From Lysinibacillus sp. OF-1 (lineage in GTDB: Bacteria; Bacillota; Bacilli; Bacillales_A; Planococcaceae): a stretch of 64,000 nt of DNA. Positions within the stretch are counted from its first letter, which is position 1; each line of letters starts with the position of its first letter. The stretch is from NCBI RefSeq assembly GCF_028356935.1, contig NZ_CP102798.1, positions 2,666,001 to 2,730,000 on the forward strand, in the 5' to 3' direction. This document shows positions 23,468 through 47,201 of this stretch, one piece after another. Both the position numbers and the translations under genes were made by a program. Below the pieces are notes generated by a model. The model saw nothing but the letters and a program-made list of their open reading frames with translations. It had not been told where the DNA came from and searched no databases.

Positions 23468-23497
23468 AAAAAAGAAACGTCAAAAATCAACGTTTCT
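23468..23497 (-). terminator. Terminator of the lactonase/dehydrogenase operon
   Basis: Minus strand AGAAACGT / ACGTTTCT stem with a 9-nt loop and six T residues. Confidence 0.75.
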
Positions 23498-23507
23498 CTT
23501 TTCTTAA

Positions 23508-24689
23508 TTATGATTGTTTAGGCTCTCGAACTTCTCCATCAAATGCAGCTCGATAAATAGCATAGATATCTTCTCGTTCTAGTAGCATCGGGCTTCGTGC
23601 TAAAATTCTTGTTTGTTTCGTTGCATCATCCGTTAATTGTTCTAAGGCTTGTTCTGGTATATTAAATCCTTTTAATGTGGAAGGAATATTAACATCTTGA
23701 ACGAGTTTTTGTAATGCGTCGACGCATTTATAGGAAGCCTCTTCTTGCGATAAATAGGCAGATGCTATACCCATTGCATCTAAAATATCTTTCAGACGTT
23801 TTTCACAGCTTTGACGAATATAGCCCATAACATATGGCAATAGCACTGCATTGGAATCACCATGTGCAATATGGAATTGGCCGCCAAGTGGATAAGCTAA
23901 CGCATGGACACCAGCTACACCAGCATTGAAGAATGCCAAGCCTGCTAAATAGCTGCCATAGCTCATATCTGTTCGAGCCTGCTTATCTTGCCCCTCATGG
24001 ACAGCCGTTCGAATCGAATGACTAATTAATCGAATAGCTTGCAGGGCAAGGGCATCTGTTACCTCGTTCGCATTCACTGATACATAGGCTTCAATGGCAT
24101 GTGTGAGGGCATCCACACCTGTAGCAGCCGTTACCTTTGGTGGTAAAGAAATCGTTAAAGCTGGATCTACAATTGCTACATCTGCTAATAAATAATCATG
24201 TGTTACGACATCCTTCGTTGTGTCGAGTGATAGCACAGAGATATTCGTTACCTCTGAGCCTGTCCCAGAAGTAGTTGGAATTAAGATTTTGGGCAGCCCT
24301 TTATTGTCCAATGTTTTTGTCCCTGTTAGGTTTAAATAATCTGCGACTTGTCCCTCATGTGTTGCTAATACAGCAGCGAGCTTTGCTAAGTCTAATGCAC
24401 TTCCCCCACCTACACCAATGACTAAATCGAACTGATGATTTCGAGTAAAATCTACAAGCTTTTCGCCAATGGCAAGCGGTGGCTCTGGTGCAATCTCCGT
24501 ATAAATAGTGGTTGTATACCCCTTTTCAATTAAAGGTTTTTCAACATGATCTGTTAACCCTATTTCTTTTAATAATGGATCTGTCACAATCAAAATATTG
24601 CGCGCGTTCAATTTCTCTACCTCTATCAGGAGCTGACTTAAGCTTCCCCAGCCGGTATAGCTTGTAGGTGTAAAGGTTAATTTATGCAT
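23508..24689 (-). CDS. Iron-containing alcohol dehydrogenase (candidate 4-hydroxybutyrate dehydrogenase)
   Basis: 393-residue group III (Fe-dependent) alcohol dehydrogenase. The Rossmann part has VIGVGGGSALDLAK (about 90-103) and the NAD-contact segment IPTTSGTGSEVTN (about 137-149). Metal ligands are Asp193, His197, His262 and His276, with the usual spacing. It is the last gene of an operon with an aldehyde dehydrogenase and a lactonase. In Agrobacterium blcABC the equivalent enzyme (BlcB) oxidises 4-hydroxybutyrate to succinic semialdehyde; I infer the same here, but other hydroxy acids or diols are possible. AGGAG precedes ATG 24689. Confidence 0.88.
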   Translation of the reverse strand: MHKLTFTPTSYTGWGSLSQLLIEVEKLNARNILIVTDPLLKEIGLTDHVEKPLIEKGYTTTIYTEIAPEPPLAIGEKLVDFTRNHQFDLVIGVGGGSALDLAKLAAVLATHEGQVADYLNLTGTKTLDNKGLPKILIPTTSGTGSEVTNISVLSLDTTKDVVTHDYLLADVAIVDPALTISLPPKVTAATGVDALTHAIEAYVSVNANEVTDALALQAIRLISHSIRTAVHEGQDKQARTDMSYGSYLAGLAFFNAGVAGVHALAYPLGGQFHIAHGDSNAVLLPYVMGYIRQSCEKRLKDILDAMGIASAYLSQEEASYKCVDALQKLVQDVNIPSTLKGFNIPEQALEQLTDDATKQTRILARSPMLLEREDIYAIYRAAFDGEVREPKQS

Positions 24690-24706
24690 GGCTTCTCTAC
24701 TCCTAT

Positions 24707-25552
24707 CTATTCATAATAACCTTCTGTTGATTTTCTAAATGATTTAAATTGGACAGGATCATGGCCAAACCATACTTGTGAATTCGTTTCATTTGCTAAT
24801 CTTCGAATCCGTTCAACCGTCGCATTATAGCCTACAGAGTCATAGATAATGCCTGGTGGCTTAACGGGAGGACCAAAGCTTTCAGCCGTATAAATAGCAT
24901 CCGAGGCTAAAATGATGCCTCCTGTATCGGGCATCTGTATATGCAAACCGAGCATACCCCAAGCATGGCCACTACCAAAATTCAATACTTGGATTCCTTC
25001 TGCTAGCTTCACTTGATCCTCGCCACGCTTAATTAGGCGCCATTGTAGATTGTTTTTAATCCACATATCAATGTCACCCCAAACATACGCACCGTCTTTG
25101 ACGTTTCGTGCATAGGTTTGTAATGTACCGTTAAATTCGTCTTCTTGCACAATAATTGTTGCATTTGTGAACAATTCTAAGCAGCCTGCATGGTCGAGAT
25201 GCAAATGGGATGCGACAACATATTTGATGTCCTCTGGACGAACGTTTAATTCTTCTAAGCGATGATGCAAATAGCATTCTTCTGGCATATTAATAGGAAA
25301 TGCCTTTTGCGTAAATTCACCCCAACGGCCTTCTGGCCCCATAGAATTTGGATTACACGCTGTATCAAAGAGAATTTTACCCTCTGGATGGTCAATCAGC
25401 ACTGTATAAACAGGGAATTCCACAAATTCATTTGGTTGGTTTGGATGATCGATCGTTGCTGGATTATGCATGGCAATCATATAGTTTTTATCCATTCGCA
25501 TCGTACCATTGTCCATTACATACAATTTTGGGTGTTGTTTGATCATTTTCAT
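24707..25552 (-). CDS. Metallo-beta-lactamase-fold lactonase (AHL/gamma-butyrolactone lactonase family)
   Basis: 281-residue lactonase with the dizinc motif HLHLDHAG (His116, His118, Asp120, His121), a further ligand in GSGHAWG, LASDA (bridging Asp) and the final HDP histidine. The family hydrolyses N-acyl-homoserine lactones (AiiA, AttM/BlcC) or simpler lactones such as gamma-butyrolactone. Its location between an aldehyde dehydrogenase and an Fe alcohol dehydrogenase points to the simple-lactone catabolic role, with quorum quenching as a possible side activity. Start ATG 25552 (MKMIKQHPK) follows GGAG by 9 nt; the frame also opens at 25567. Confidence 0.9.
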   Translation of the reverse strand: MKMIKQHPKLYVMDNGTMRMDKNYMIAMHNPATIDHPNQPNEFVEFPVYTVLIDHPEGKILFDTACNPNSMGPEGRWGEFTQKAFPINMPEECYLHHRLEELNVRPEDIKYVVASHLHLDHAGCLELFTNATIIVQEDEFNGTLQTYARNVKDGAYVWGDIDMWIKNNLQWRLIKRGEDQVKLAEGIQVLNFGSGHAWGMLGLHIQMPDTGGIILASDAIYTAESFGPPVKPPGIIYDSVGYNATVERIRRLANETNSQVWFGHDPVQFKSFRKSTEGYYE

Positions 25553-25573
25553 GTTTCCCATCTCCATTCGTGA

Positions 25574-27007
25574 TTATTGGTTATTCCAAATTACTAGCTT
25601 CATTTCCGTCATTTCCTCTATTGCATATTTAATGCCCTCACGACCTGTGCCACTTTCCTTCACACCACCGTATGGCATATGATCTACACGATACGTCGGA
25701 ACATCATTAATAATGACACCGCCAACTTGTAATAATTTCGTGGCTTGGAAAGCAATCTCAATAGAAGGTGTAAAAATCCCTGCCTGTAAGCCATAATGGG
25801 AATCATTGATAGCTGCTATCGCATCCTCTATCGATGAGACTGTATTCACCGTAACGACAGGTGCAAAGATTTCCTCACAGGATACACGGCTCTGTGGTTG
25901 AGCATTATATAAAACAGTAGGTAATAAAATATGATTCTCAATGTGACCACCCGTTATAATCTGTGCCCCTTCCGCAACCGCCTCTTTAATCCATTGATAG
26001 GCACGCTGTTGTTCAGCTCGTGAAATCATCGTCGCTAAATCCGTCTTGCTGTCCAGTGGATCACCAATTATTAGCTGTTCTATTTTTACTTTCAGCAGCG
26101 ATAAAAATTCGTGAATCATACTCTCCATAACATAAATACGCTGCAATGAAATACACACTTGACCTTGATTTGAAAAAGCTCCCATCACAATGCGATCCAT
26201 TATACGGTCGAGTTGGACTCCTTCATCAATAATAACGCCTGCATTCGAGCCTAATTCTAATGTTACTTTTTTCAAACCAGCTCGATTACGTAAGGAAATG
26301 CCTACTGCAGGGCTTCCCGTAAACGTTATCATTTTAACGTGTGGATGTGCTAAAAACATATCCCCTACTAATTTGCCTTGTCCAGTTACAAGATTAAATG
26401 CTCCTGCTGGTAAATTGGTTTGGGCTAATAACTTGGCTAAAAAATGAGCAGATAATGCTGTTTGTGTGGCAGGCTTCAACACAATGGTATTGCCTGCCGC
26501 TAACGCTGGCCCTACTTTATGGGCTACTAGATTTTGCGGAAAGTTAAATGGCGTAATCGCTGCCACTACACCTATTGGTTCCCGTAATGTATAGGCAAAA
26601 CGCCCCTCTCCATTTTTCGAGGCATCCATCGGAATCATCTCACCCGTAAGTCGCTTCGCTTCTTCAGCCGCAAATTTATAGGTTTCAATGGTGCGATCAA
26701 TTTCTGCATAGGCATACTTTAACGGCTTCGCTGATTCCAATGAAATAATGCTTGCTGCTTCTTCCCGATGTTCCGCAAACAGCGTGGCTAAATGTTCCAA
26801 TATCTCCGCGCGTTGAAAAGCGGTTAAAGCAGCCATTTGAGGAGCTGCAGCCTGCGCACTTTCAATGGCCTCCTGTACATCCTGTTCAGTAGCCATCGCA
26901 AATTGTGCAATCACTTCCTGTGAGTAAGGAGCTTGCACCTCCATCCAGTCAGCGGTCATCTTCCATTCCCCGTTGATCCATAAGCCCTTTTTCAAAACTT
27001 GTGTCAC
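25574..27007 (-). CDS. Aldehyde dehydrogenase (candidate succinic semialdehyde dehydrogenase)
   Basis: 477-residue NAD(P)+ aldehyde dehydrogenase. ITPFNFP carries the oxyanion-hole Asn155, LELGSNAG the general base Glu251, and GQVCISLQR the nucleophile Cys285. It is the first gene of the operon (then lactonase, then Fe alcohol dehydrogenase). In a lactone pathway it would oxidise succinic semialdehyde to succinate. The sequence is also compatible with sulfolactaldehyde, glyceraldehyde-phosphate or phosphonoacetaldehyde dehydrogenases, so the substrate rests on context. AAGGAG is 6 nt before ATG 27007 and lies right beside a large inverted repeat. Confidence 0.9.
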   Translation of the reverse strand: MTQVLKKGLWINGEWKMTADWMEVQAPYSQEVIAQFAMATEQDVQEAIESAQAAAPQMAALTAFQRAEILEHLATLFAEHREEAASIISLESAKPLKYAYAEIDRTIETYKFAAEEAKRLTGEMIPMDASKNGEGRFAYTLREPIGVVAAITPFNFPQNLVAHKVGPALAAGNTIVLKPATQTALSAHFLAKLLAQTNLPAGAFNLVTGQGKLVGDMFLAHPHVKMITFTGSPAVGISLRNRAGLKKVTLELGSNAGVIIDEGVQLDRIMDRIVMGAFSNQGQVCISLQRIYVMESMIHEFLSLLKVKIEQLIIGDPLDSKTDLATMISRAEQQRAYQWIKEAVAEGAQIITGGHIENHILLPTVLYNAQPQSRVSCEEIFAPVVTVNTVSSIEDAIAAINDSHYGLQAGIFTPSIEIAFQATKLLQVGGVIINDVPTYRVDHMPYGGVKESGTGREGIKYAIEEMTEMKLVIWNNQ

Positions 27008-27016
27008 TCCTTTCTT

Positions 27017-27064
27017 TATGGTTACGTATTCATTTCAGAAAATAAAGAAATGAATACGTAACCA
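27017..27064. promoter_or_regulatory. Paired operator / large inverted repeat before the lactonase operon
   Basis: Two perfect 19-bp arms, ATGGTTACGTATTCATTTC (27017-27035) and its complement (27046-27064), flank a 10-bp A/T spacer. No T run follows on the minus strand, so it is unlikely to be a terminator. Each arm also contains a CG-centred half-palindrome (ATGGTTA-CG-TATTCAT, 5 of 7 symmetric), the form bound by LacI-family repressors. It sits between the LacI gene and the operon. Confidence 0.7.
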
Positions 27065-27072
27065 TTTTAGTG

Positions 27073-27099
27073 TAAAAAACAAACTGACATTACATCAGT
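27073..27099 (-). terminator. Terminator of the LacI gene
   Basis: AACTGA / TCAGTT stem spanning the LacI stop codon, followed by TGTTTTTT on the minus strand. Confidence 0.68.
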
Positions 27100-28088
27100 T
27101 CATTTTTACACGTTGTATTTCTTGGGAAAAGTTTAACAGACTCTGTTTGCTGGATGCAAGTACTTTTTTTTTCCATGATCTCAAATAATTTTTCGATGGC
27201 CATAAAACCAAGGTTTTCCTCTGTGGTTAAACCAACTGTTGTTAAAGCAATAGAATGATGTTTACTCAGCTCGACATTATCAATACCTATGACATTAAAA
27301 TCCTTCGGAACCTGAAAGCCTCTTTCCAAACAAAGATTTAATATTTCAATAGCGATAGCATCTGTAGCTGCGCAAATAGCTGTTGGTCTACTATCGAGTT
27401 GTAAAAGTTCCTCAAAGGCACGTTCAATATCCTTTTTATTAGTGTTCGTTAAAAAAGTAGGCACGGCTTTGGCCTCTATCCCATGTTCCTTTAAGGCCCG
27501 TTCAAATCCCTGATAGCGCCCATAAAAAGTACTCATTTGATGGGGCCCACCTATCCAGCATAAGGATTGATGCCCTAACGATAAAACATGATTGGCTGCA
27601 AGATAACCAGCATGCACATTATCAATCTCTACAAAATGTCTATTTTCTTGATGCTTACGATTAAACATAATAAACGGGATGCCTAGTTTTTCTAGTTTAA
27701 AAAACAAATCATCTTGGTACAGCATAGAAGATAAAATGATCGCGTCTGCTTTTGTTTCCAAAACCGCATTATAAATTGAATGTAAATTATCCTCTGTTCC
27801 AAAATAGACATTGACTTTATAGCCACGTGCATTAACATAATTCACGATTGCTGTTGTTGTATCAACAAAAAAAGGGTTGTGTAACGGCCCCGAAATCAAT
27901 GTTATAATGCCTGTTTTTTTCTGAACAAGCGATCTTGCTATATCATTTGGCACATAGTTTAGTTCCTCAATCGCCTTCATTACTTTTTCAATTGTTTTTG
28001 GCTTTACCAGCTCTGGCGTATTCAACACCCTAGACACGGTTGTTTGTGAGACACCAGCATGCTTTGCCACATCTTTTGAAGATACCAA
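27090..28088 (-). CDS. LacI family transcriptional regulator
   Basis: 332-residue LacI/GalR repressor. The helix-turn-helix is KDVAKHAGVSQTTVSRVLNT, followed by the hinge helix VPNDIARSLVQKKT and a periplasmic-binding-protein-like sensor domain. I place the start at TTG 28088, after GGGTGG; the frame opens at ATG 28109, but that would add an atypical hydrophobic leader and lacks a ribosome binding site. Just downstream is the lactonase operon with paired LacI-type operators, so that operon is the likely target. A further inverted repeat (28126-28145) suggests autoregulation. Effector unknown. Confidence 0.88.
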   Translation of the reverse strand: MVSSKDVAKHAGVSQTTVSRVLNTPELVKPKTIEKVMKAIEELNYVPNDIARSLVQKKTGIITLISGPLHNPFFVDTTTAIVNYVNARGYKVNVYFGTEDNLHSIYNAVLETKADAIILSSMLYQDDLFFKLEKLGIPFIMFNRKHQENRHFVEIDNVHAGYLAANHVLSLGHQSLCWIGGPHQMSTFYGRYQGFERALKEHGIEAKAVPTFLTNTNKKDIERAFEELLQLDSRPTAICAATDAIAIEILNLCLERGFQVPKDFNVIGIDNVELSKHHSIALTTVGLTTEENLGFMAIEKLFEIMEKKSTCIQQTESVKLFPRNTTCKNELM

Positions 28089-28125
28089 AAAAACCACCCA
28101 TTTCATCATTGTAAAGCTATATTAT

Positions 28126-28145
28126 ACCATTTATAGCATAATGGT
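28126..28145 (-). promoter_or_regulatory. Promoter/operator of the LacI gene
   Basis: ACCATT-N8-AATGGT inverted repeat (28126-28145) overlaps a minus-strand TATAAT -10 box, about 30-40 bp before the start. Confidence 0.5.
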
Positions 28146-28168: not shown

Positions 28169-29389
28169 TTAGCCCTTTCGTTCATAGGGCTTAGCTGCTT
28201 CACTCGCTTTAAAATTGTAGACGGGTTGAATAACTTTTACAATATCCACTGTTTCCCCAATAGCAGCTGTAATTTCTGCCATTGGCTTATAGGCCATTGG
28301 TGCCTCATCCAATGTTTCTTCGTTAACAGATGTTGTCCAAACCCCTTTCATCGTGTCTTTAAAATCTTCCATATTCAACGCTTTTTTAGCCGCTCGACGT
28401 GAGAACATGCGCCCTGCTCCATGCGGTGCTGAATAATTCCATTCTGCATTGCCCTTCCCAATACAAATAAGAGAACCGTCTCGCATATTCATAGGGATGA
28501 CAAGCTTTTCTCCTTTATTAGCACGAACAGCCCCCTTACGAAGGGTCATTGTTTCTGTCTCAATATAGTTATGGATCGTATCAAAGGTATCTACAAAATG
28601 CCAATCCATCTGTTTAGCAATCGTTTCTGCAATCGTCCAACGATTCATACGTGCAAACTGCTGTGCAATCTTCATATCGTGAATATAGTCATGGAAAGCT
28701 TCACCTTCTAAATAGGCTAAATCTTTCGGAACTGGCGGGTGTTGTTCCTTATAGGCTTGAATCATCGTTTGAATCTCCTGTTCCCGTCCTTGCTGCTTAA
28801 GCTCTACTATCTTTTCAGTCAAATCTTGTCTACGTAAATTTTCATAAGCTCTCTTTTGATGCCAATTGGCAACCTTTGCCCCTACATAGCGTGAACCTGT
28901 ATGGATCAATAAATAGTAGTGATTGTCTTCATCCTTTGCCAATTCAATGAAATGATTGCCTCCACCAAGTGTCCCTAATGATAGATTGGTATAGTCATCT
29001 TTCAAGCCGCTTGCTCGAAATTGTTTACCTTCAAACTCTAAAAAATGTCGATTGGGTGATACTTCTTGATGAATGTCCTGCCCACTTGGTATATGTGTTC
29101 GAATAATGGTATCGAGCTTTTCATAATCCACTGTCGATACATTTAATTGAGCGACTAATACACCACAGCCTACATCTACACCGACAAGATTTGGTACAAC
29201 ACGACCCTGTAATTGAATGGTTGTGCCAATAACACAACCTTTCCCCGCATGATAATCTGGCATAATCCGTACCTTAGTACCTGCCATGAAAGCCTGATCT
29301 GTCAGCTCTTGAATTTGCTCGATGGCAGTTTGCAATGCTGTTTGTGCATAAATTTTGGCCTCTGTGTAACGACCTTTAATGTCAATCAT
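28169..29389 (-). CDS. rtcB: RtcB family RNA ligase
   Basis: 406-residue RtcB, which joins RNA 2',3'-cyclic phosphate or 3'-phosphate ends to 5'-OH ends using GTP and Mn2+. Metal and guanylate landmarks are NLVGVDVGCGVLVAQL, GTLGGGNHFIEL, HTGSRYVG and the nucleotidyl-histidine segment SAPHGAGRMFSRR. The protein is shorter than E. coli RtcB but matches bacterial RtcB2-like forms. No archease, RtcA or RtcR is nearby. GGAGGG lies before ATG 29389. In bacteria it probably repairs tRNA or rRNA cut by toxins. Confidence 0.93.
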   Translation of the reverse strand: MIDIKGRYTEAKIYAQTALQTAIEQIQELTDQAFMAGTKVRIMPDYHAGKGCVIGTTIQLQGRVVPNLVGVDVGCGVLVAQLNVSTVDYEKLDTIIRTHIPSGQDIHQEVSPNRHFLEFEGKQFRASGLKDDYTNLSLGTLGGGNHFIELAKDEDNHYYLLIHTGSRYVGAKVANWHQKRAYENLRRQDLTEKIVELKQQGREQEIQTMIQAYKEQHPPVPKDLAYLEGEAFHDYIHDMKIAQQFARMNRWTIAETIAKQMDWHFVDTFDTIHNYIETETMTLRKGAVRANKGEKLVIPMNMRDGSLICIGKGNAEWNYSAPHGAGRMFSRRAAKKALNMEDFKDTMKGVWTTSVNEETLDEAPMAYKPMAEITAAIGETVDIVKVIQPVYNFKASEAAKPYERKG

Positions 29390-42669: not shown

Positions 42670-44079
42670 TTACACAGTTTCCTTGACAAATTCACGCACA
42701 TCAACAAAATGACCTGCAATCGCAGCGGCTGCTGCCATTGGTGGTGATACTAAATGTGTACGAGAACCCGCGCCCTGACGTCCTTCAAAGTTGCGGTTAG
42801 ATGTAGAAGCACAGCGTTCACCAGCTGGTACGACATCATCATTCATGGCTAAACACATGGAGCAACCTGACTCCCGCCATTCAAAGCCAGCTTCCATAAA
42901 GATTTTATCCAAACCTTCTGCCTCCGCTTGCTTTTTCGTAGTATGTGACCCTGGCACAACGATCGCTGTGACCTTATCGTGCACCTTGCGTCCTTTGATG
43001 ATATTAGCTGCCGCACGTAAATCACTAATTCGTGAATTTGTACAGGAGCCAATAAAGACATGCTGGATGTCAATGGATGTTAAGGATTGCCCTTCCTCTA
43101 AGCCCATATAAGCAAGCGCTTTTTGAAGTGCCGCCTTATCAGAGTCATCCTCGTAATCTGCCTGTGTAGGCACATATCCTGAAACACCCGTACCCATCGA
43201 GGGATTGGTACCCCATGTAATGATAGGTTCAATTTCTTCTGCTTGTATGATACGAACTGTATCGTACGTAGCATCCTCGTCTGAGGCAAGGCTTAGCCAA
43301 TAAGCAGCTGCTTCCTCTAATTTTTCACCTTGGGGTGCATATTTGCGACCACGAATATAATCGACGGTTGTTTGGTCAGGTGAGATGAGCCCTGCTTTTG
43401 CTCCTGCCTCAATCGACATATTACAAATCGTCATACGTTCTTCCATTGATAATTTGTGGATTGCCTCTCCAGTGAACTCCACAATATGTCCTGTACCAAC
43501 GCCAATGCCGAACTTCGCAATAATGGCTAAAATAATATCTTTAGCTGCTACGCCAACTTGTAGCTCCCCTTCAACACGAATTTCCATCGTCTTCGGCTTA
43601 TTTTGCCATAATGTTTGCGTCGATAATACATGCTCTACCTCTGATGTACCAATCCCAAAAGCAATTGCCCCAAAGGCACCGTGAGTGGATGTATGTGAGT
43701 CACCGCAGACAATTGTTTTACCTGGCTGTGTTAGCCCTAGCTCAGGCCCGATAACATGTACAATGCCTTGGTCAGGGTGACCCATCCCTGCTAGCTCAAC
43801 GCCAAATTCTTCAGCATTTTTAGCCAATGTTTCGATTTGATTGCGTGCAATGGGATCATGGATAGTCGGTAAATTTTTCGTTGGTACATTATGATCCATT
43901 GTCGCAAAGCTTAAATCAGGACGACGCACTTTCCGTCCATTCAAACGTAGCCCTTCAAAAGCTTGCGGAGATGTTACTTCATGAATTAAATGAAGATCAA
44001 TATATAACAGGTCCGGTTTGCCCTCTTCCTGATAAACTACATGTTTATCCCAAATCTTTTCAATTATATTTTTACCCAT
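42670..44079 (-). CDS. leuC: 3-isopropylmalate dehydratase large subunit
   Basis: 469-residue LeuC, an aconitase-family enzyme. The [4Fe-4S] ligands are the Cys in [13 protein letters not shown] and the pair in [13 protein letters not shown]; the active-site RTHLVSP-type tail [19 protein letters not shown] is present. It works with LeuD in leucine synthesis. Start ATG 44079 (MGKNIIEKI) follows AGGTGAAG; GTG 44088 is the alternative. It lies 18 bp after leuB and is co-transcribed with it. Confidence 0.97.
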
Positions 44080-44096
44080 TGTCTTCACCTATTTCT

Positions 44097-45197
44097 TTAA
44101 ATATATGTTGTCATAATGCTTTGTGAAACAAAGCTAGTATCAATTTCATTAATTACTTTATCTGTCCATTCATTTGTCGAAAGAATACGATTGCCATCAC
44201 GGGCTAGATCTGCTGTAAAGTAACCATCATCAAATACCGCACTAACAGCACGCTCAATTTCTGCTGCCTCTTCTGTTAAACCAAATGAATATTGCAGCAT
44301 CATAGCGACAGAAAGAATGGTTGCTGCAGGGTTTGCGACTCCTTGCCCTGCAATTTCTGGTGCTGACCCATGTACTGGTTCATATAAGCCAAAATTATCG
44401 CCACGGATAGATGCTGATGGTAATACACCTAAAGAGCCAGTAATGACAGAAGCTTCATCGCTTAAAATATCACCGAACATATTTTCAGTGACTACAACAT
44501 CATAGTGTCCTGGGTTTGTAATAAGTTTCATCGCCACAGAGTCTACTAGATTATGTTCTACGATCACATCTGGATAATCTTTTTTCTTAGCTTCTACGAC
44601 TTCTCGCCATAAGCGACTTGTTTCAAGCACATTCGCCTTATCAACAGAGCATAATTTGCCGCCACGTAAACGTGCTAGCTCAAAGGCATTTTCAACAATA
44701 CGTTCCACTTCTGCTTTTGAGTAGACCGTTGTATCAATTGCGCCATTTTCAGTACGCATACGTGGTTCCCCGAAGTATACGCCGCCTGTTAGTTCACGGA
44801 CAATCATTAAATCAACGTTTTCAGCTACTTCACGTTTCAGTGGTGAAGCATCTAGTAAACTCGGGAACGCCTTTACTGGACGTAGATTTGCAAAAAGATC
44901 GAAGTGTTTGCGAATTCGCAATAACCCTTTTTCCGGGCGTAATTCAGGTGGATTCTGATCCCACTTTGGACCACCTACAGCACCTAATAAAATCGCATCA
45001 CTATTTTCACACATCTCGATTGTTTCTTCTGGTAGTGGATTATTATGCTGGTCGATAGCAGCACCTCCAATTGTTGCATACCCTAAATGAAAAGTATGAT
45101 TAAATCGTTTACCAATCACTTGTAATACACGTACAGCAGAAGCAACAACCTCAGGGCCAATCCCATCACCAGGAAGTACTGTAATTTTTCTCTCCAT
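44097..45197 (-). CDS. leuB: 3-isopropylmalate dehydrogenase
   Basis: 366-residue LeuB, NAD+-dependent oxidative decarboxylase. ITVLPGDGIGPEVV at the N-terminus, LLGAVGGPKWD, and the nucleotide loop EPVHGSAPEIAGQGVANPAAT are all intact, as is the catalytic Tyr/Lys region (TGGVYFGEPR). I start at ATG 45197 (MERKITV), 8 nt after AAAGGTG; ATG 45200 and GTG-like upstream codons are in frame. Upstream, where leuA normally sits, there is only a stub and a hairpin-rich leader. Confidence 0.96.
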   Translation of the reverse strand: MERKITVLPGDGIGPEVVASAVRVLQVIGKRFNHTFHLGYATIGGAAIDQHNNPLPEETIEMCENSDAILLGAVGGPKWDQNPPELRPEKGLLRIRKHFDLFANLRPVKAFPSLLDASPLKREVAENVDLMIVRELTGGVYFGEPRMRTENGAIDTTVYSKAEVERIVENAFELARLRGGKLCSVDKANVLETSRLWREVVEAKKKDYPDVIVEHNLVDSVAMKLITNPGHYDVVVTENMFGDILSDEASVITGSLGVLPSASIRGDNFGLYEPVHGSAPEIAGQGVANPAATILSVAMMLQYSFGLTEEAAEIERAVSAVFDDGYFTADLARDGNRILSTNEWTDKVINEIDTSFVSQSIMTTYI

Positions 45198-45245
45198 CAT
45201 CAAAACACCTTTCTTTGTATAGCGCATTCGCTAATTTAGTAAAGA

Positions 45246-45274
45246 CGCCCACCTACCATTGAATTAGGTGGGCG
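45246..45274 (-). terminator. Strong hairpin just upstream of leuB (possible attenuator)
   Basis: CGCCCACCTA / TAGGTGGGCG 10-bp perfect GC-rich stem, followed on the minus strand by TCTTTAC. The weak U-run suggests attenuation or mRNA processing rather than full termination. Confidence 0.55.
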
Positions 45275-45299
45275 CATTCATTACGTCTACGCGTAATTT

Positions 45300-45480
45300 T
45301 TTGTGAATGGATACAATACGCCATATCATCATTGCATCCGACTTGTGAATGGTATGTCATACGATTCACTACCTTTAAAACCTATACAGGATGTGCTCCC
45401 GAAGGCATGCTATTAAATGACGGTTAATGGCATTTAATAGCAGCTTCTAAACATCTTGAGAGGAGTTACGGCCGGTAGTC
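45300..45480 (-). promoter_or_regulatory. Hairpin-rich leader of leuBCD, unassigned
   Basis: The gap between the leuA stub and leuB has ordered hairpins on the minus strand, including GCTATTAAATG / CATTTAATAGC (45409-45441) next to a TGC-CTTCGGGA-GCA element. It resembles the lower stem region of the ilvB T-box leader (a GGCTATTAAA ... ATAGCTCCGGGC element there). No T-box sequence is present. It could be a decayed second T-box, or a processing region. Confidence 0.4.
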
Positions 45481-45489
45481 GATATATCC

Positions 45490-46603
<1,114 letters not shown>

Positions 46604-46685
46604 TTATTTCCTCCTAGAATTTGGTTTGGTTTTCATAGCTTTAGCAACTTGCTGTTTCAATAAAGCTATCAATTTTATATGCAAA

Positions 46686-47201
46686 CTATTTTAAAATAGA
46701 GAGCTGTGGGTTTGAGATTTTTTGCGTTTCACGCACAGAGGCAGTGGCTCCTGTACGTGTCAGTTCTTTAATGCCATATGGTCGAATGAGTTCGATAAAG
46801 GCATCAATCTTTTCTGGGTGCCCTACTACTTGATACGTCACAACATTTTTGGCTGTGTCAATAATTTGTGCACGAAATGGTTCAACAATCGAATTCATTT
46901 CCAAGCGTAGATTTGGTGGTGAAATAACCTTTACTAGCGCCAGCTCTCGCAGAACAATTGATTTGTCGGTAATATCATTGACTTTTAACACATCAATTTG
47001 CTTGGATAATTGTTTTACTAGCTGCTCGATTTTGCGTTCATCCTCAACATTGACAACAAAGGTCATCTTAGAAAAATTTGGTTGTTCAGTATGCCCTACT
47101 GTAATCGATTCAATATTGAACTGTCGCTTCATCAACAAACCTGTCAATCGGTTTAATACACCACTTTGGTTAATCACAGTTACAGTAATTACTCGTTTCA
47201 A
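46686..47201 (-). CDS. ilvN: Acetolactate synthase small (regulatory) subunit
   Basis: 171-residue regulatory subunit with an ACT domain at residues 3-75 ([32 protein letters not shown]) and a second ACT-like domain in the C-terminal half. It binds valine and confers feedback control on IlvB. Its start overlaps the ilvB stop by 4 bp (ATGA), so they are translationally coupled. It is called ilvH or ilvN depending on the annotator. Confidence 0.95.

Follow-up and report, generated by a model that had tools for sequence, protein, structure and literature searches.

The window analysed here, a 64,000-nucleotide (nt) stretch of Lysinibacillus sp. OF-1 (NZ_CP102798.1, 2,666,001–2,730,000; coordinates below are positions within it), holds an operon of genes for a LacI-family repressor, an aldehyde dehydrogenase (ALDH), an AhlS-family lactonase and an Fe-dependent alcohol dehydrogenase (ADH). 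We propose, with a probability of roughly 60%, that this operon catabolises small lactones with a 4-hydroxybutanoate core, of which gamma-butyrolactone (GBL) is the likeliest, under its own LacI. The proposal builds on gene order, gene families, a candidate operator that is both conserved and rare, an enzyme substitution in sister operons and a residue signature, all of which are seen in the sequence. A pathway of GBL type had been suggested in a first-pass annotation of this DNA, and the suggestion gains support from the lactonase family, from a succinic semialdehyde dehydrogenase (SSADH)-type enzyme in the ALDH slot of 8 of 71 LacI operons and from residues Y266 and R361 of the ADH.

We infer the substrate, the inducer, repression and the direction of flux as follows. 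An uncharged lactone would diffuse into the cell, where AhlS would open GBL to 4-hydroxybutyrate; the Fe-ADH would oxidise this to succinic semialdehyde (SSA), and the ALDH would oxidise SSA to succinate, feeding the tricarboxylic acid cycle. LacI would repress the genes through paired operators immediately ahead of the start of the ALDH gene. Related operons with a permease gene (PERM) share the LacI and the operator without having a lactonase, so that the probable inducer is the hydroxyacid or the semialdehyde, not the lactone. Degradation of N-acyl-homoserine lactones (AHLs), that is, quorum quenching, would come as a by-product or an added benefit.

The lactonase could, in the first-pass view, have turned out to belong to an unrelated metallo-beta-lactamase group; it falls within the AHL-lactonase family instead, exceeding the cut-off of the AhlS model NF047976. 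Compared with the enzymes of Agrobacterium blcABC (lactonase BlcC, ALDH BlcA and ADH BlcB), it stays below the AttM/BlcC model NF045700 (139.1 bits, cut-off 390; BlcC itself scores 486.4), and its identity is 79.6% to GcL (Protein Data Bank (PDB) 6n9i), 41% to AiiB and 30% to BlcC. PDB entry 6cgy, which we take to be AaL, matches it at 526.8 bits. We propose that it is a gamma-lactone hydrolase; AHL hydrolysis is likewise predicted, from the identity to the characterised lactonase GcL. AaL acts on GBL at 1.4e5, on delta-valerolactone at 4.5e5 and on C4-AHL at 1.3e6 M-1 s-1 (PMC6062542).

The best evidence that the pathway aldehyde is SSA or a close relative comes from the eight operons in which an SSADH-type enzyme occupies the ALDH slot. 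Four of these proteins were scored on the SSADH model TIGR01780 and exceed its cut-off of 646 bits (L094, 662; L095, 664; L096, 661; L109, 679), that of L160 was assigned by tree alone and those of L158, L162 and L163 by BLAST alone; in the tree, L094, L095, L096, L109 and L160 cluster with GabD and BlcA (97/93). The window ALDH scores 354 bits on the same model, against 737 for BlcA, to which it is 32% identical. It lies outside BlcA's SSADH family and well apart from the GabD/BlcA clade, joining the ALDH of a Priestia plasmid cluster with a ring-hydroxylating oxygenase (100/99). Its nearest solved structures are 5kf0, presumably a Burkholderia-type ALDH, and ALDH21 (5mz5). ALDH21, a succinic semialdehyde dehydrogenase, binds its substrate through Arg121 and Arg457; the window protein has the equivalent Arg105 and Arg440, but the lactaldehyde dehydrogenase 3pqa, by eye, has both too, and the pair is hence non-specific. 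We propose that the window ALDH is an SSA-type dehydrogenase of the ALDH21-like group. In the strain's own genome 0 of 14 matches reach the SSADH cut-off (best 437 bits), so that GabD is absent by the criterion of that cut-off alone. Grouping with phosphonoacetaldehyde dehydrogenase, an outcome that the first-pass annotation had foreseen as damaging, finds no support in the model score (368.9 vs 635.65 bits); with the cut-off for sulfoacetaldehyde dehydrogenase missed as well (368.1 vs 700), phosphonate/sulfonate aldehyde oxidation was rejected as a function.

The ADH is 38% identical to BlcB and forms a separate clade in a tree with long branches. On the 4-hydroxybutyrate dehydrogenase model NF058672 (cut-off 500) it scores 247 bits, but BlcB reaches only 228; because BlcB fails as well, the failed cut-off says little about the window ADH, and the model does not cover BlcB-type ADHs. 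Four residues, R83, T179, Y266 and R361, are conserved in the Bacillales ADHs and common to BlcB and HOT (hydroxyacid-oxoacid transhydrogenase, here the annotation of a Halobacterium protein); FucO, DhaT and PduQ have other residues at these positions. Among related ADH sequences Y266 is found in 124/124 and R361 in 123/124 (one gap), a set that contains near-duplicates since it includes the named loci L003–L035 and plasmids L066/L067. Three other Fe-ADHs of the same genome pass the Pfam cut-off, two of them 35–37% identical to the window ADH, and all three lack R83, Y266 and R361; Y266 and R361 are also absent from maleylacetate reductase (MAR). Y266, four residues past the metal ligand His262, corresponds in the alignment to FucO His266 (annotated numbering), which we take to be the active-site residue His267 of the literature. 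The Y266/R361 pair suggests a hydroxy-acid substrate, and we propose that the ADH is a 4-hydroxybutyrate (omega-hydroxyacid) dehydrogenase.

The LacI protein matches no named equivalog (best NCBIfam model RbsR NF047341, 189 vs 382 bits), and its homologues are 48–100% identical across the 71 operons. Ahead of the ALDH gene, a perfect 19-nt inverted repeat (27018–27036/27047–27065) comprises two copies of ATGNNTACGTANNCAT with centres 32 bp apart. Exact ATGNNTACGTANNCAT stands between lacI and the next gene, whichever gene follows, in 70 of the 71 operons (two copies in 38, one in 30, three in 2); in the exception, L161, a copy lies upstream of the block before its lacI. As the motif was derived and counted on the same loci, its genome-wide rarity is the independent check. 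The 4.71-Mb genome of the strain has only 2 exact copies, both at the window operon, and the one-mismatch pattern is no commoner there than a reversed control (12 vs 19); exact copies were found in 12 of 40 further genomes, 10 of them at LacI loci, the remaining singles being in G103 and G109. Further copies separate lacI from divergent CoA-pathway genes in L088, L089, L105 and L106, and L009 has the site upstream of AhlS-ADH in a locus where lacI was not seen. A LacI protein with a conserved palindromic site beside the genes that it would regulate points to a LacI-type repressor operon, ligand-dependent DNA binding being predicted. The link to LacI made in the first-pass annotation is thus strengthened by the operator, whereas its view of LacI control as unusual does not hold, 71 of the 97 family ADH loci being LacI operons.

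Exact operator copies accompany second LacI operons in Sporosarcina luteola (L190) and Planococcus lenghuensis (L191). The former (L190:6203-18083, G175:C3) encodes an ADH and an ALDH 48% and 60% identical to those of the window, together with thiolase-, 3-hydroxyacyl-CoA dehydrogenase-, enoyl-CoA hydratase-, symporter- and CoA ligase-like genes, a larger related pathway.

These figures come from a gene-order search of 261 genomes, all of one family by their genome codes, 67 of them with AhlS above cut-off and 96 with a close ADH (E <= 1e-120). Including the window, 97 of 99 ADH places were classified; G046 (contig start) and a 52% paralogue in G017 (L191) were omitted, L003–L035 and plasmids L066/L067 stand outside the 97 since several come from strains already in the set, and L166 and L167 hold no counted ADH. 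The LacI operons are arranged as LacI-PERM-ALDH-ADH (28), LacI-ALDH-AhlS-ADH as in the window (18), LacI-ALDH-ADH (11), LacI-AhlS-ADH-SSADH (6), LacI-ALDH-ADH-AhlS (5), LacI-PERM-ADH-SSADH (2) and LacI-ADH (1). The 26 loci without LacI are a lone ADH (13), aspartate kinase-AhlS-ADH (5), AhlS-ADH (4) and four single arrangements. The first-pass annotation had proposed a search for the window order in other Lysinibacillus genomes: it is identical in 9/9 Lysinibacillus loci recruited by an AhlS query (L003–L008 and L030–L032), among them the closest named relative, Lysinibacillus fusiformis Juneja 3 (L003; 99–100% match), and is also found in S. luteola (L010). This recurrence is far above chance.

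Within the 71 LacI operons, PERM occurs in 30, AhlS in 29 (in three gene orders), neither in 12 and both in 0. In nine of the 12 with neither, genes for an enoyl-CoA hydratase and a GntP permease run divergently; eight of the nine also have thiolase or CoA ligase genes. The exclusivity of PERM and AhlS gives a Fisher value of 1e-10, which is no true probability as the loci are related; the tree count is safer, and in a quick LacI tree the minimum number of label changes is 5 for AhlS (3 forced by well-supported branches), 3 for PERM and 2 for the SSADH slot. Two Lysinibacillus loci, L079 (G049) and L080 (G056), lack ahlS and have ALDH and ADH adjacent; they are nested inside the AhlS-bearing clade, so these absences are probably losses. 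PERM has 461 residues (for example, L070:9712-11097), and its sole PDB match is 7tak, ‘PurT’ (380 bits), which we take to be a nucleobase transporter; its substrate here may be other than purine. Searches of NCBIfam (to 1e-15) and Pfam (to 1e-8) returned nothing for it. PERM was not found in the strain's own genome, in a search that carries little weight as it had no positive control, and was otherwise sought only beside ADH genes.

AhlS also occurs in other settings. On a P. lenghuensis plasmid (L067, record 266709-281539), AhlS-ADH-ALDH is flanked on both sides by transposase genes, with methionine-synthesis genes farther out and an ALDH of a third type (43% identical). In Planococcus and Planomicrobium (L015–L021, L023 and L026), AhlS is directly downstream of aspartate kinase, with the ADH in 4/9 loci.

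In other Bacillales, AhlS accompanies a gene for a PAS/sigma-54 activator at 11 loci (Domibacillus, Fictibacillus, Paenibacillus, a Brevibacillus metagenome-assembled genome, Cytobacillus and a Peribacillus plasmid), two of the regulators having been scanned and the others being BLAST matches. In 11/11 the interval from the regulator to the first gene contains a −24/−12 element, TGGCAY-N5-TTGCW (background 0.02 per kb). Some of these loci are incomplete, L014 and L027 being without an ALDH and L029 having a zinc-type ADH. The combination of sigma-54 regulator, aiiB and Fe-ADH has already been published for Priestia megaterium (PMC12501872). We count the recurrence of the enzyme set, in the sigma-54 loci as in Agrobacterium blcABC and a Halobacterium plasmid cluster (both below), in favour of a GBL-type pathway. 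Upstream of the −24/−12 element, 10/11 loci have GGTGA...TCACC palindromes (GGTGAA...TCACC in L011–L014, L022, L024, L027, L028, L035 and L066), a candidate binding site of the sigma-54 activator.

Several observations weigh against catabolism of GBL-like lactones by the operon. Neither oxidoreductase reaches an NCBIfam equivalog cut-off: the best model is lactaldehyde dehydrogenase for the ALDH (507 vs 650 bits) and lactaldehyde reductase for the ADH. The Y266/R361 signature was chosen post hoc from few reference enzymes, and T179 was dropped from it as non-specific, since it is also present in MAR and two other Fe-ADHs of the genome. The alternation of PERM and AhlS reflects few independent events (at least 3 and at least 5 changes), and PERM resembles PurT, no obvious hydroxyacid carrier. 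At six unlinked ahlS genes (G141, G128, G124, G258, G259 and G251) no operator was found, which led us to reject a trans regulon for ahlS. The Planococcus AhlS is divergent from hom-thrC-thrB (families scanned in L020 only). A promoter scan of the window returned 14 promoter-like sites where 14.8 were expected and identified no promoter. Finally, AidP, an AHL lactonase of Planococcus versutus, showed no activity on GBL or homoserine lactone (PMC6240239), a result whose weight depends on AidP's relation to AhlS.

Among the alternatives, the same chemistry might serve another lactone, with delta-valerolactone or a substituted gamma-lactone passing through a hydroxyacid of five or more carbons and a semialdehyde to a dicarboxylate. 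The SSADH model family presumably includes glutarate-semialdehyde enzymes, and the permease and GntP versions of the operon leave the chain length unfixed; AaL, moreover, is better on delta-valerolactone than on GBL (PMC6062542). We nonetheless regard this as unlikely, as the window operon, by its open reading frame (ORF) list, is without a CoA ligase or beta-oxidation gene and the ADH shares Y266/R361 with enzymes of C4 substrates, which we take HOT to be and which BlcB is (PMC3907764).

Quite unlikely, in our judgement, is an operon dedicated to eating quorum signals, in which N-acyl-homoserine, itself a substituted 4-hydroxybutanoate, would be oxidised to N-acyl-aspartate semialdehyde and N-acyl-aspartate. 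The preference of AaL for C4-AHL over GBL (PMC6062542) speaks for it, as does the Planococcus AhlS, adjoining aspartate kinase and divergent from hom-thrC-thrB in 5/97 loci. However, AhlS is absent from 42/71 LacI operons, no acylase or aspartate-handling gene was recognised beside the LacI operons (where most neighbours are unannotated) and BlcC allows growth on GBL, not on OC8-homoserine lactone (PMC3907764).

The best NCBIfam models of the two oxidoreductases, and the occurrence of ALDH-ADH pairs without AhlS, would also fit a diol/lactaldehyde module (FucO/AldA-like) with the lactonase as a separate passenger kept for quorum quenching; the paralogous LacI operon L191 adjoins glycolate-oxidase-like genes, named from their start residues only. 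This is very unlikely given that Y266/R361 match BlcB and HOT, not FucO, DhaT or PduQ, that an SSADH-type enzyme replaces the ALDH in sister operons and that AhlS has been joined in three gene orders, improbable for a passenger. A role of the inverted repeat 27018–27065 at the RNA level, as an attenuator or a hairpin that stabilises the mRNA, in place of one as LacI operator is highly improbable: its folding energy is −26.9 kcal/mol (z −10.1), and 10 nt separate its end from the annotated start of the ALDH, but we reject this reading because 30 of the 71 operons carry a single copy, unable to form this hairpin, and the two-copy spacing outside Lysinibacillus (36–162 bp) and the copies beside divergent genes speak against it too.

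Returning to catabolism of GBL-like lactones, we see about even odds that it extends to the lineage: Bacillales AhlS/GcL lactonases would here be primarily catabolic, joined in three gene orders to the ADH and an SSA-type module under a LacI operator and replacing a permease, with a membrane-permeable lactone replacing an imported hydroxyacid as carbon source, the shared intermediate as inducer and AHL decay as a by-product. This suggests that nutrition comes first for the ‘quorum-quenching’ lactonase. Whether AHL lactonases serve signal jamming or lactone eating is debated for Agrobacterium BlcC (PMC5924552), and the present loci make the question directly testable. In them a well-studied lactonase family has a defined operon context, which comprises a regulator, a candidate operator and two partner enzymes. 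Natural controls are at hand in L079/L080, which lack ahlS, and in relatives whose operon shares LacI, ALDH and ADH but carries a permease where the lactonase would be. The operator and the inducer logic would bear on when such strains degrade AHLs. The pathway chemistry is already known; the LacI operon, its operator and the permease/lactonase alternation appear to be new, searches of open-access papers having returned no description of them.

The layout of the operon is given in Table 1. A re-check of the ORF list upheld the first-pass account of one block, with catalytic residues intact in the ALDH (E251/C285), the lactonase (HLHLDH, 121–126) and the ADH (D193/H197/H262/H276); its four ORFs are on the minus strand, and Pfam and NCBIfam agree on the enzyme classes. 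The gaps are 82 nt (lacI-ALDH), 6 nt (ALDH-lactonase) and 17 nt (lactonase-ADH). The true starts of lacI and ALDH are probably downstream of those in the ORF list: the TTG of the ALDH follows AAAGGAG, and that of lacI (MVSSKDVAKHAG...) matches relatives. The operon appears to close at the terminator-like hairpin after the ADH. The hairpin at the end of lacI is not significant by itself, although palindromes occupy the equivalent place in L007, L070 and L074; with a terminator-like hairpin after lacI, the structural genes would need their own promoter.

Table 1 Features of the LacI–lactonase operon in the window
Feature	Position	Strand	Evidence
lacI-family repressor gene	27090–28109	-	PF00356 and PF13377 above gathering score; probable start TTG 28088
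Aldehyde dehydrogenase (ALDH)	25574–27007	-	PF00171, 505 bits; probable start TTG 26995
AhlS-family N-acyl homoserine lactonase	24707–25567	-	NF047976, 548.6 bits vs cut-off 475
Fe-dependent alcohol dehydrogenase (ADH)	23508–24689	-	PF00465/PF25137
Candidate LacI operator copy 1, ATGAATACGTAACCAT	27050–27065	.	conserved ATGNNTACGTANNCAT
Candidate LacI operator copy 2, ATGGTTACGTATTCAT	27018–27033	.	second half of perfect inverted repeat
Weak terminator-like hairpin and U-run, lacI end	27069–27100	-	−5.3 kcal/mol, z −1.0
Terminator-like hairpin and U-run, operon end	23468–23502	-	−14.7 kcal/mol, z −4.4

Directly upstream of lacI lies an RtcB-like gene (28169–29389) that matches PF01139, scores below any NCBIfam RtcB cut-off and is present there in most, not all, Lysinibacillus loci; downstream of the operon is a convergent gene, ferritin-like by appearance. 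A plus-strand ORF (25262–25573) was set aside as antisense to the lactonase except for its last 6 bases. Scans of the window with Rfam (gathering threshold) and for tRNAs gave no matches.

The known system to which the first-pass annotation likened the operon is Agrobacterium blcABC (attKLM; L068). The likeness holds for the three enzyme classes, and further for the proposed GBL-to-succinate chemistry, a local regulator and Y266/R361 of the ADH; it does not extend to homology (30–38% identity). When the enzymes were compared with their blc counterparts, the lactonase proved to be AhlS, not AttM, the ALDH fell apart from GabD/BlcA, and the ADH fell apart from BlcB but shares its two residues. 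LacI (PF00356) stands in place of the IclR-type BlcR, and the gene order differs. With lactonase family, ALDH family and regulator all different, membership of blcABC was rejected, and the window operon is an independent assembly, most likely with a blcABC-like function. BlcB belongs to the Blc pathway that leads from GBL to succinate, and release of BlcR has been reported with GBL, gamma-hydroxybutyrate (GHB) and SSA (PMC3907764); the true inducers may be SSA, or SSA and GHB (PMC5924552).

Other systems share parts of the arrangement. The aiiB neighbourhood of P. megaterium, a member of the Bacillaceae, resembles the sigma-54 loci in that its AHL lactonase gene is preceded by a sigma-54 regulator and followed by an Fe-ADH; some strains lack aiiB and the regulator but retain the Fe-ADH, the setting is discussed as quorum quenching and, unlike in the window, neither an ALDH nor a LacI is mentioned in the excerpts available (PMC12501872). 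AhlS of Solibacillus silvestris, the namesake of NF047976, GcL and AaL belong to the same lactonase family and are described, in the available texts, as enzymes rather than as an operon. The qsd operon of Rhodococcus erythropolis (QsdA/QsdC, QsdR) is alike as a Gram-positive, repressor-controlled lactonase operon for lactone catabolism and quorum quenching; it differs in its lactonase QsdA, its acyl-CoA ligase QsdC and a TetR-family regulator that binds homoserine lactone, and ‘alcohol dehydrogenase’ occurs nowhere in the text of that paper (PMC6262395). On plasmid pSTJ001 of Halobacterium hubeiense (L174, record 43886-47025), a lactonase-HOT-SSADH tandem covers, by annotation, the same three steps. 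Its lactonase is 29% identical to that of the window, a transhydrogenase stands in for the NAD-type ADH and LacI is absent from the 3.1-kb stretch; the cluster looks like an archaeal counterpart of the GBL cassette.

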